The notes under the pieces were generated by a model. It did no database searches, was not told the origin of the DNA, and worked only from the letters and a program-made list of their open reading frames with translations. Positions 10,284 through 14,502 of a stretch of DNA of 64,000 bases are shown here, one piece after another. Source of the DNA: Candidatus Poribacteria bacterium (GTDB lineage: Bacteria; Poribacteria; WGA-4E; GCA-2687025); contig JAPPNK010000012.1 in the NCBI GenBank assembly GCA_028818695.1, forward strand, positions 62,001 to 126,000, given 5' to 3'. The first letter of the stretch is position 1. Each line of letters starts with the position of its first letter. Position numbers and translations under genes: made by a program.

Positions 10284-11591
10284 TCAGTTGCCGTTTCTAA
10301 AGTAGGTTCCCAAAAGGAACTTCGGCGGCGTCTGATTTCTCGGCTCGCTCGGTATCAGCTCAAAGGCGAAGCCGATCGGAGCGGGGCCGAGGTCGTTCTG
10401 CCGGAAGTTGTACGTCGTCGCGCCCCATCGGGAAGCGGCGGCGACCATGTCGAACTGCTCAAAGGCGTTCGTCTTTCGGTTGTAGCGGATAACGCCCTTG
10501 ATCGTTGCGTCCATGCCGCGTTTCATGTCGATCTTGAAGCCCGAATACGGGTTTGTCTGCCCTGTTGGATCCGCTTCGAGAAGCGCATGCCCTTCGAGAC
10601 GTATCTTCAAGGCGTTTTCGTTTACCGATTCGACGCGCAGCGTCAACCCCGCCTTTTGGATATGTTTGTCGTGCCAAGGCGGCGCCTCGCCCCGCACCTG
10701 ATCAACCAGATGGTACTGCGCGATGCGGCGCACAAGCTCTTTCGGCGCCTCGTATTCCATGCCCGCCTTTGGGTTGTCGGGAATGAGCGCCTGCGCCTCC
10801 TCTTTCCGTATCCAGAGATGGTCAAAGTTGTGCTTCCAAATCTGGACTTCGTCGCTGCTTTTGTCTTTGCGCGGGATGTCGCGCATCGTTTCACGCAGAA
10901 TGAGCGCGCCTTCAGGGAAGGAGCGGTTGAAATTCCGGTCCTTTTCGTAGGACGCGGGAACATCCGCTGTCGGGTTCATTTCGTTCCACTTTTTCAGCGC
11001 CTTGTTCAGCATGCTCAGGACATGCTCAACGCGCGTCGTGTTGATGGAGGCAAGCAGCTCGCCTTCCGACGTGCAGGCGTAAAGCCCCTGGCGGGTGCCG
11101 GTCGGCTTCGTTCTGCCGGAGTAATGGCCTTGTTCAGCCATTTTGCGGAAGAACTCGCCCTCGGCGTCTCTTTGAATCTGCGTGAAGGTGCAGTTGTCGG
11201 CGACAGGAATGAATTGCTCGGTGAGAATTTTGATGACTCGGTCGTCGGAGAAGACGGACGCACGGCCCGTCACGCCGTTGTTTCAGACGCAACCGAGCGG
11301 GTCGCCGTTCATTGCCCAGATGAACATCGGCTTCTCTTGCTGCGCCGATCGGATTCTGCCTTCCCAGATGTCGGGCGTCCATGGTATCTTGCGCCATTTC
11401 GTTTCGCCAGCTTCCGGCAGAATGAAGCGCATGACGGTCTGAAATTGCTCGTCCGTTTGCATGTTCTGTTCGAAGGCGGCTATCACGCTCGACTCCTCCG
11501 CAATCTGCTTCAGTTTGTCGGGATCAATCGTCTGACTGTTTGCGAACGCCGCCGCCGCCAAGACGGCGGCAAAGGCAATCATTCGTCTCAT
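10284..11591 (-). CDS. Secreted thioredoxin-like protein with in-frame UGA: probable selenoprotein
   Basis: One reading frame runs from ATG 11591 to 10284 and is broken only by a single TGA at 11283-11285. Reading that TGA as selenocysteine gives a 435-residue protein with U103. The first part starts with a signal peptide (MRRMIAFAAVLAAAAFANSQ). A thioredoxin-like segment follows, with the strand KPMFIWAMNG, the motif PLGCV-U-NNGVTGR and the strand EQFIPVADN. Cys101 and U103 would form a C-x-U redox pair. A GC-rich hairpin starts 12 nt after the UGA. Conventional calling gives two genes, 11283-11591 and 10284-11273, but the second has no ribosome site and begins mid-domain. The start at 11591 is supported by AGAAGGA and an upstream promoter. 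Downstream residues 110-435 show no family I recognise. Alternatives are a nonsense mutation or a sequencing error. Confidence 0.7.
11253..11271 (-). promoter_or_regulatory. Candidate bacterial SECIS hairpin
   Basis: Starting 12 nt downstream of the UGA, the mRNA can fold GACGGGC against GUGCGUC-side bases as a 7-bp stem (one G-U pair) closing a 5-nt loop CGUGC. The loop begins 19 nt after the UGA and has a G at its second position. Position and shape fit what is known of bacterial SECIS elements, but GC-rich coding DNA yields such hairpins easily, so this is suggestive only. Confidence 0.4.
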
Positions 11592-11628
11592 CGGATCCTT
11601 CTTTCTGTGGTTGCCCGTTCTTTAGATT

Positions 11629-11656
11629 AGTATAACCCAAAGGCGGGCATTTGCAA
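11629..11656 (-). promoter_or_regulatory. Sigma-70-like promoter for the UGA-containing gene
   Basis: On the minus strand TTGCAA (11656-11651) and TATACT (11634-11629) are separated by 16 bp, matching -35 and -10 boxes at 4/6 and 5/6 positions. The start codon is 38 bp downstream. The orientation and distance fit the gene at 10284-11591. Confidence 0.45.
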
Positions 11657-12003: not shown

Positions 12004-12032
12004 TTGACAAACGGTCTGCCTGTAGGTAGGCT
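12004..12032 (+). promoter_or_regulatory. Promoter for the sulfite reductase operon
   Basis: A perfect consensus -35 TTGACA (12004-12009) is followed after 17 bp by TAGGCT (12027-12032), a weak -10. The inverted repeat GCCT-gtaggt-AGGC (12018-12031) overlaps the -10 and could be a small operator. The start codon at 12070 lies 37 bp downstream. Confidence 0.4.
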
Positions 12033-12069
12033 TTATGAAAGCATCGTGTTCCCAAAAGAAAGGCGCGGT

Positions 12070-14502
12070 ATGTCCCTCACTGTACGCAACGCTGACATCG
12101 CCTCCAAGATTGCGAGCATTCCTCCAGAAATTGAGCGCGAACTGAACGTCTTCGAGATCGAACTGGATCGCTTTCAAAACGACGATATTCCTGAAAATAT
12201 CTTCACCGAGTTTCGACTTCGACACGGCGTCTATGGACAGCGCCAAGACGGCGTCCAGATGATACGCATCAAAATTCCCTTCGGCGGCGTGACGACGGAG
12301 CAGATGGAGGTCCTCGCCGACGTCTCTGAAGAATACGCCGACGGCGTCTCCCATATCACAACCCGTCAGGACATCCAGTACCACTTCGTCAAGATCAGCG
12401 ACGCCCCCGCGCTCATGCGGCGCCTCGCCTCGGTCGGCATCACGACGCGCGAAGCGTGCGGCAACGTCGTCCGCAACGTCACCGCATGCCCCGAAGCGGG
12501 CGTCTGCGCCGACGACGCCTTCGATGTGACGCCGTATGCGAAGGCGCTGGCGAACTTCCTGCTGCGCCACCCTGAGGCGCAAAACTTCGGCAGAAAGTTC
12601 AAAATCGCCTTCTCCGGCTGCGAAGACAAAGCATGCGGGCTGGCGAACATGCATGACATCGGCCCGATCGCCGCGCTCAAAGAGGTGGACGGCGAAATGA
12701 AGCGCGGATTCCGCTTCCTTGTCGGCGGCGGACTCGGCGCGGTGCCGCATCAGGCGAAGGTTCTTTACGACTTCCTGCCTGAAGAGGAACTGCTGCCGGT
12801 ATCGCAGGCGATCGCGCGCGTCTTCACCCAACACGGCGAACGCAAGCGGCGCATGAAAGCGCGCATGAAGTTTCTGATTGCCAAGATCGGCATCGACGAA
12901 TTCCGCCGCCTTGTGGAAGAGGAGCGGGAGAAGCTCGACTTTGACCCGCGCTGGACGGAGTATCTGAATCATCTGAAAGACTCGGAAGAGTCGCCGTTGA
13001 AACCGCCCTCAACGCTGGACGAAACGGACCTGCCGGACGATTTCCTGCGCTGGAAAGAGCGCAACGTGAAACCGCAGCGCGAGGAAGGGTATGTTTCGGC
13101 GCAGGTCACGCTCCCGCTGGGCGACATCACGGCAGATCAGTTCCGCGATCTTGCCGCCGTCTGCCGAAAGTATGTGAAGGACACGATTCGATTGACGGTG
13201 CCGCAGAACATTCTGGTGCGCTGGCTTAGCGAGGGCGACCTGCTCGACTTTTACAACGACCTGAAGGCGATTCATCTGGACGACTTCGGCACGGAGGGCA
13301 TCTCGGACGTTCTCGCCTGCCCTGGCACCGACTCCTGCAAGCTGGGGATCTCGTCGTCGCGCGGTCTTGCGGCGGTTCTTCGGGAGAAGTTTTTGGACGA
13401 ATCGTACGACGACGTCCGCCATCTGAGCGTCAAGATCAGCGGCTGCCCGAACTCGTGCGGTCAGCATCACATCGCCGACATCGGCTTCTTTGGATCGATC
13501 ATGCGGAAAGGCGGGCATGTCGCGCCGCACTTCCAGGTGGTTCTCGGCGGACAGCAGCAGGGGAATGCGCAGTCGTTCGGGCTTGCGGTCGGCAAGGTGC
13601 CGTCGAAACAGGCGCCCGCGTTTGTCGACAGGCTCCTGGATCTTTACCGGGCGCAGGCGGAGGAGGGCGAAGCGTTCGCCAGCTTCGTTGAGCGCATCGG
13701 CGTTCAAACGGTCAAGGAGAACCTGAGCGAGTTCAACGATCTGCCGGAGTTTGACGACGACGACAGCTTCTACTTCGACTGGGGGCAGGCGCGCGAGTTT
13801 TCGCTTCAGTCTGGGACGGGCGAATGCGCCGGCGAGCTGGTCGATCTGGTCGAGTTCATGTTGACCGAAGCGGACCGCTGGCTCTACGAGGCGGCGCTCC
13901 GTTTTGAAAAAGACCTGTACGAAGCGACGGCTCTGCACACGCTGCAAGGGATGCAGCGCGCCGCGGACGCCCTGCTGACGACGAAGGGCATTCAGCAGAA
14001 AGACCTACAGACGACGGCGGCCGACTTCAAGCGCGAGTTTGTTGAAACGGCGCAGTTCTGGGCTCCGTTCGCCGAGTTCTTCGACAAGTATATCGAGATG
14101 GACAAGTCGGCGCTGAACGAAGAAGGCGCCCACATCGCCATCGAAGAAGCGACCCTGTTTGTCGAGCAGGCGCATGAGGTGTACGGGCGCATGCAGATTC
14201 AGGCGGAAAAGAAACCGCGGACCGCCGCCAAGAAGGCTCCGAAAGCTGCCGCCAAACCGGCCGAGAAGGTCGAAGAGATTGTCGACAGCCTCGACCTGAA
14301 AGGCGTCGCATGCCCCTACAACTACGTCCGCACGAAGCTGCGCATGGAGCAGATGAACGTCGGCGAGCTGCTGGAGATCACGATCGATGACGGCGAGCCG
14401 ATCCGCAACGTTCCCGCCAGCCTCAAAAACGACGGTCAGGAAGTCGTTGACACGAAGAAGATCGGCAGCCATTACCGACTCATCATACGGAAGGCAGAAT
14501 GA
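12070..14502 (+). CDS. Siroheme [4Fe-4S] sulfite/nitrite reductase fused to a C-terminal TusA-like domain
   Basis: The 810-residue product starts with the two-fold repeated sulfite/nitrite reductase hemoprotein (about residues 1-530). The siroheme-iron-sulfur ligands are C417-x5-C423 (ACPGTDSCK) and C459-x3-C463 (SGCPNSCGQHH); the first repeat has TACPEAGVC and SGCEDKACG. A helical segment (about 560-705) follows, then a Lys/Ala-rich linker (KKPRTAAKKAPKAAAKPAEK). The end is a roughly 75-residue TusA/SirA-like domain whose CPY motif carries Cys748. The catalytic half reduces sulfite to sulfide (or nitrite to ammonia) with ferredoxin; TusA domains carry persulfide sulfur. The fusion suggests handing sulfide-derived sulfur to a carrier (inference). 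ATG 12070 was chosen over an upstream start that lies inside the promoter. The stop overlaps the next gene (ATGA). Confidence 0.9.
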   Translation: MSLTVRNADIASKIASIPPEIERELNVFEIELDRFQNDDIPENIFTEFRLRHGVYGQRQDGVQMIRIKIPFGGVTTEQMEVLADVSEEYADGVSHITTRQDIQYHFVKISDAPALMRRLASVGITTREACGNVVRNVTACPEAGVCADDAFDVTPYAKALANFLLRHPEAQNFGRKFKIAFSGCEDKACGLANMHDIGPIAALKEVDGEMKRGFRFLVGGGLGAVPHQAKVLYDFLPEEELLPVSQAIARVFTQHGERKRRMKARMKFLIAKIGIDEFRRLVEEEREKLDFDPRWTEYLNHLKDSEESPLKPPSTLDETDLPDDFLRWKERNVKPQREEGYVSAQVTLPLGDITADQFRDLAAVCRKYVKDTIRLTVPQNILVRWLSEGDLLDFYNDLKAIHLDDFGTEGISDVLACPGTDSCKLGISSSRGLAAVLREKFLDESYDDVRHLSVKISGCPNSCGQHHIADIGFFGSIMRKGGHVAPHFQVVLGGQQQGNAQSFGLAVGKVPSKQAPAFVDRLLDLYRAQAEEGEAFASFVERIGVQTVKENLSEFNDLPEFDDDDSFYFDWGQAREFSLQSGTGECAGELVDLVEFMLTEADRWLYEAALRFEKDLYEATALHTLQGMQRAADALLTTKGIQQKDLQTTAADFKREFVETAQFWAPFAEFFDKYIEMDKSALNEEGAHIAIEEATLFVEQAHEVYGRMQIQAEKKPRTAAKKAPKAAAKPAEKVEEIVDSLDLKGVACPYNYVRTKLRMEQMNVGELLEITIDDGEPIRNVPASLKNDGQEVVDTKKIGSHYRLIIRKAE

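Follow-up and report, generated by a model that had tools for sequence, protein, structure and literature searches.

We analysed a window of 64,000 nucleotides (nt) of contig JAPPNK010000012.1 from a Candidatus Poribacteria genome (35 contigs, 3.57 Mb), in which a single minus-strand frame of 436 codons runs from 11591 to 10284 and is almost certainly the gene of a selenoprotein. Its sole internal stop is a TGA at 11285–11283, set between MNGDPLGCV and NNGVTGRASVF, with C101 followed two residues on by U103. Translation thus agreed with an earlier note on this DNA, which had described one TGA in an otherwise open frame, two residues after a Cys. Positions refer to the whole window and residue numbers follow the protein with selenocysteine (Sec) at residue 103. 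The features of the locus are:

10284–11591, minus strand: coding sequence of the predicted selenoprotein, 435 residues with Sec103, plus a TGA stop
11597–11602, minus strand: Shine-Dalgarno-like GAAGGA upstream of the ATG, read from the sequence
11532–11591, minus strand: signal-peptide-like N-terminus MRRMIAFAAVLAAAAFANSQ, with a hydrophobic 12-mer (mean 2.6) at residue 5
11289–11291, minus strand: Cys101 codon, giving the Cys of C-x-U
11283–11285, minus strand: in-frame UGA, predicted selenocysteine codon, residue 103
11253–11271, minus strand: predicted bacterial selenocysteine insertion sequence (bSECIS) hairpin, stem GACGGGC/GUCCGUC of 7 base pairs (bp)
11260–11264, minus strand: apical loop of the hairpin, CGUGC, which holds the CGT codon of Arg110
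10974–11399, minus strand: predicted thioredoxin-like domain, residues 65–206
10350–10907, minus strand: predicted C-terminal beta-rich domain, residues 229–414

The UGA is kept at the same column far beyond chance. We scanned 84,980 species genomes and obtained 122 encoded relatives, of which the best 80, at 30–56% identity to the window protein, all carry TGA at the Sec column (80/80). According to their record titles these 80 belong to seven phyla: Poribacteria, Latescibacterota, Gemmatimonadota, Planctomycetota, Verrucomicrobiota, Kiritimatiellota and Chloroflexota. Homologues align over the full length of the protein, and the frame remained open for 299–358 codons past the TGA in the 79 relatives examined. 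A class search (82 genomes) also returned full-length relatives, at 31–56% identity with one in-frame TGA each. Because one of our two search patterns demanded Cys at the UGA column and the other left that column out, Cys forms would have surfaced if they were common; Cys was rarely found there. Among 53 representatives, chosen at a 72% identity limit, Sec103, Trp71, Met94, Gly96, Pro98, Asn105 and Arg110 are invariant, and C101 is Cys in 52. Both halves of the frame appear to be coding, since GC content at codon positions 1/2/3 is similar on either side of the TGA (0.55/0.43/0.73 before, 0.57/0.41/0.75 after).

The predicted bSECIS hairpin begins approximately 11 nt past the UGA, and a spacer of 18 nt separates its apical loop from the UGA. 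Published criteria for such elements are a loop of 3–9 nt, a stem of at least 4 bp, a G in the first two loop positions, a spacing of 16–37 nt and a minimum free energy of −7.5 kcal/mol or lower (PMC13188914). The hairpin lies within all of these limits, with its 5-nt loop, 7 bp, 18-nt spacing and −10.9 kcal/mol, and the loop presents the GU that SelB would be expected to bind. With 41 distinct sequences compared, the five core pairs were paired in 98.5% of cells, as against a mean of 80.7% in shuffled controls and 17–39% in slid versions, and all five had changes on both sides. Furthermore, 51 of 53 sequences use CGT for the Arg110 loop codon, whereas the share of CGT among all Arg codons of these genes is 18%; this is the strongest codon bias among 53 columns, the runner-up being six times weaker. 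A bias so strong at Arg110 alone suggests selection acting on the RNA. Two divergent members (L084, L093) use AGA for this Arg, and an alternative, shifted six-pair stem with the loop AGUCU, again containing GU, could be drawn for them by eye.

The same genome encodes the machinery required. We detected tRNA-Sec (anticodon TCA, 74.7 bits), selB with selA adjoining it on the contig from which the window comes, and a Sec-type selD which has its own in-frame TGA in a GUASK motif. Within the Poribacteria, selA scored above the cut-off in 71 of 84 genomes, and outside this phylum it was present in 37/41 genomes carrying the gene. In one planctomycete class, selA accompanied the gene in 33 of 36 genomes, compared with 14 of 40 genomes lacking the gene (Fisher p 2.8e-7); as the genomes are drafts, selA absences in these counts are soft. 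The earlier note had tentatively read the UGA as selenocysteine and had named homologues at the UGA column, a bSECIS hairpin and Sec machinery as checks. All three came out in favour of this reading, no evidence contradicting Sec was found in our analysis, and the UGA at 11285–11283 is predicted, with near certainty, to encode selenocysteine.

An AlphaFold model of the window protein (mean predicted local distance difference test score, pLDDT, 91; predicted template modelling score 0.89) places residues 65–206, with next to no doubt, in a thioredoxin fold, as the earlier note had proposed. The closest structure to this predicted domain is 3f9u, a DsbD-like C-terminal domain (Z-score 13.0, 2.0 Å over 106 residues), followed by AGR3 (Z 11.9), ERp19 (Z 11.5) and then DsbH; no PDB chain was related to the protein by sequence (best E 1). 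The C-terminal beta-rich domain, modelled alone at pLDDT 93, resembled small barrels in the PDB, outer-membrane ones among them, too weakly for its fold to be named (best Z 6.8). It carries a conserved motif, R289-x4-H294-x2-D297-x2-R300-G301, perhaps a binding site.

The active site is neither CxxC nor UxxC; it is UxxG with a Cys at −2. In two of three CxxC relatives (L178, L179), the first Cys aligns ungapped with Sec103 and the second with Gly106, hence it is most likely Sec that attacks, and on this alignment Sec103 would probably stand in for the N-terminal Cys of CxxC. C101 is, by a slight preference, our candidate for the resolving thiol. The redox partner that the earlier note saw near the UGA is therefore only partly right: a Cys does lie two residues before the Sec, but Sec replaces the attacking Cys, Gly106 replaces the second Cys, and C101 is an extra residue which is missing from one close paralogue. 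In the mechanism we propose, the hairpin together with SelB, tRNA-Sec, SelA and SelD would recode the UGA as Sec103, and the exported protein would consist of the thioredoxin domain joined to the C-terminal beta domain. The Sec103 selenolate would attack an oxidised substrate, either a disulfide or a peroxide, Cys101 would resolve the attacked Sec103 through a C-x-U selenenyl sulfide, and the C-terminal domain may pick the substrate or partner.

Whether the chemistry is that of a disulfide reductase or isomerase rather than of a peroxidase is finely poised. A selenoprotein whose Sec is peroxidatic, as in glutathione peroxidase or peroxiredoxin, instead of engaged in disulfide exchange, is a plausible though less probable alternative. 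It draws on the lack of a C-terminal resolving Cys (UxxG, compare UxxT in peroxidases) and on peroxidase folds further down the list of structures (3e0u, Z 5.8; 8hla, Z 5.7), whereas the best structures are thiol oxidoreductases of the DsbD C-terminal, AGR, ERp19 and DsbH types (Z 10–13) and C-x-U supplies a local resolving Cys in all but one of the representatives.

The other explanations concern the UGA itself and are each very improbable. Read-through as another residue, for example Trp through a code change or a suppressor, draws on the fact that read-through alone does not reveal the amino acid. However, UGA ends 14 of the 26 window genes checked while TGG is used 256 times, so the codon has not been reassigned; moreover, a SelB-type hairpin follows the UGA, the Sec machinery is present, and the residues found at this column in relatives are mostly Cys and never Trp. 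The locus could also be imagined as two genes, one for a short exported peptide and one for a protein that begins at the only long downstream restart, a GTG at 11273 which opens a 329-aa open reading frame (ORF). No Shine-Dalgarno-like site was found before this GTG, the thioredoxin fold spans both halves and relatives keep both the UGA and the frame; the earlier note had likewise held that the downstream half lacks a ribosome site and that two genes were unlikely. A true stop, from gene decay or from a sequencing error that ends the frame, has the usual look of a lone nonsense mutation or base error in its favour, but is refuted by the conserved UGA in 80/80 relatives with both halves kept at full length, by the covarying hairpin and by normal codon-position GC past the UGA.

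We are therefore left with a gene whose product is very probably a selenoprotein from a new family, a Sec-recoded thioredoxin-fold protein predicted to be exported, with a C-terminal beta domain and Sec103 as the probable attacking residue. Several observations weigh against parts of this account. A few gene-bearing genomes have no detected selA, most of them draft assemblies. For the mechanism, the third CxxC relative (L180) aligns its second Cys, not its first, with the Sec, and one representative (L043, PLGAVU), a paralogue from a related genome, has Ala in place of C101, which makes C-x-U less than an absolute requirement. Neighbourhoods of the 80 loci showed no recurrent partner beyond single clades, and as gene neighbours are not conserved they suggest neither a partner nor a substrate. 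Export, which the earlier note had claimed by calling the protein secreted, also holds for only part of the family: hydrophobicity reveals a signal-like N-terminus in the window protein, which would accordingly be exported, and in the majority of members from Planctomycetota and Verrucomicrobiota, but none in Latescibacterota and several others.

Two further candidates at the locus were rejected. The TGA that closes the frame, which the closely related Poribacteria proteins have in common, was weighed as a second Sec codon and dismissed because the sequence beyond it is not conserved. A 347-aa antisense ORF at 10587–11630 was set aside as a product of codon bias.

These thioredoxin-fold selenoproteins, most of them apparently exported, form a family that is so far uncatalogued, with the UGA kept in seven phyla. 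Scans of the window protein against Pfam, NCBIfam and PHROGs, in some of which the query carried the final TGA as U and hence one extra residue, assigned it to no family, and neither it nor its relatives reached the cut-off of any Pfam or NCBIfam family. None of the 119 selenoprotein families listed in 2026 combines this motif and architecture (PMC13188914), and no description of the family was found in a search limited to the main text of published open-access papers.

The nearest curated selenoprotein model is NF041383 (VPGUxxT type 2; OS_HP5), also a thioredoxin-like domain with Sec, which matched 10 of 53 members weakly over the first ~70 positions. Members scanned individually scored at most 17.7 bits, in the N-terminal part only, against a cut-off of 275, and the others had no match; its motif is VPGUxxT rather than PLGC[TV]U[NG]NG and the C-terminal part differs. 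Thioredoxin_7 (PF13899) and Thioredox_DsbH (PF03190), with the structures of DsbD C-terminal, AGR2/3, ERp19 and DsbH, share the fold at Z 10–13 and sub-threshold sequence matches, with the Sec aligned to the first CxxC Cys in 2/3 relatives. At the 27-bit cut-off of PF13899, the window protein had no match at E 1 and relatives scored up to 15.9 bits. The family differs from both in having Gly for the second Cys, an extra Cys at −2, Sec for Cys and an added C-terminal beta domain. The thioredoxin-like selenoprotein Sec.1 (PF13192, CxU; PMC13188914) resembles it in fold and C-x-U according to the published table, but PF13192 matched in none of our scans, and Sec.1 was compared by description only. 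DG, DW and DF (deep-Sep, PMC12013277) and GOS_B and GOS_C (PMC2398784) are likewise hypothetical selenoproteins found computationally, but the NCBIfam models that PMC13188914 gives for them match 0/53 members at E 0.01.

Non-Sec forms came from a separate search of 297 genomes of one planctomycete class, in which nearly every full-length match carries one TGA. The stop-free, full-length matches have Cys at the column in L172 (GCSC) and L171 (GSAC), Cys by a gapped alignment in L175, Ser in L173 and Asp in L174. No selA was detected in the genomes of L171 and L172, the closest Cys forms, as expected where Cys replaces Sec. In a tree, L173–L176 form an outer group while L171 and L172 fall among the Sec forms; the direction of change between Sec and Cys is unsure because L172 sits on a long branch. 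L171 is a fusion in which the Cys form lies behind a serine/threonine protein kinase domain (Pkinase, E 3e-26) and a probable membrane anchor. L173 and L174 are preceded by what reads like region 4 of an extracytoplasmic function sigma factor and a hydrophobic anchor, and are possibly redox or ligand sensors.

Further TGA-containing families were seen alongside. In Poribacteria, L023–L036 (e.g. L024:784–2373) form a separate family of larger frames (518–692 aa) with an adjacent Cys-Sec, [DN]-E-[SA]-C-U-G-S-G. Each match has one in-frame TGA and, by eye, a SECIS-like GAGGGC-AGUU-GUCCUC hairpin, with tandem copies in L031, and this seems to be a second uncatalogued selenoprotein family. More planctomycete subfamilies (L176, L186, L187, L188, L190) have TGA at the same column, with the motifs TVCUAAG, GVCUSAA, GCLUNG and GRAUGG, and beside them stand Cys forms with RCGGS (L183, L184); together these are a wide Sec/Cys superfamily.

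Selenoprotein discovery methods mostly depend on Cys homologues, and their near-absence here may explain why a family present in seven phyla is missing from the lists. Automatic annotation is likely to split the gene into two false genes. The family is a selenoprotein common to bacteria of the Planctomycetes-Verrucomicrobia-Chlamydiae group, Poribacteria and Latescibacterota, offers a reason why these lineages, which are largely uncultured, have retained the Sec machinery, and has a C-x-U active site on a thioredoxin fold that is open to testing. We tentatively suggest that it represents a class of enzymes in which Sec dominates and which is common in Planctomycetota, Verrucomicrobiota, Latescibacterota and Poribacteria; its activity would be new among thioredoxin-fold proteins and set by C-x-U-N-N-G together with the C-terminal domain, whose fold may be new. 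It would then belong, alongside the CUGSG subfamily and the related ones with UGA, to a large selenoprotein superfamily missed by Cys-homologue searches.

The gene does not appear to be mobile- or phage-like, as no relative was found in a plasmid collection (tblastn, query L075) or in viral contigs. A DUF1501-like neighbour occurs in 10 loci, in varying place and orientation. In one verrucomicrobial clade (L082, L088, L089, L092, L094, L104), a same-strand gene with a CFSCHH motif follows directly downstream at a distance of −21 to 38 bases and is a clade-specific operon partner. The divergent neighbour in the window, at 12004–14502, joins a sulfite/nitrite reductase (NIR_SIR) and a C-terminal TusA domain in one frame.
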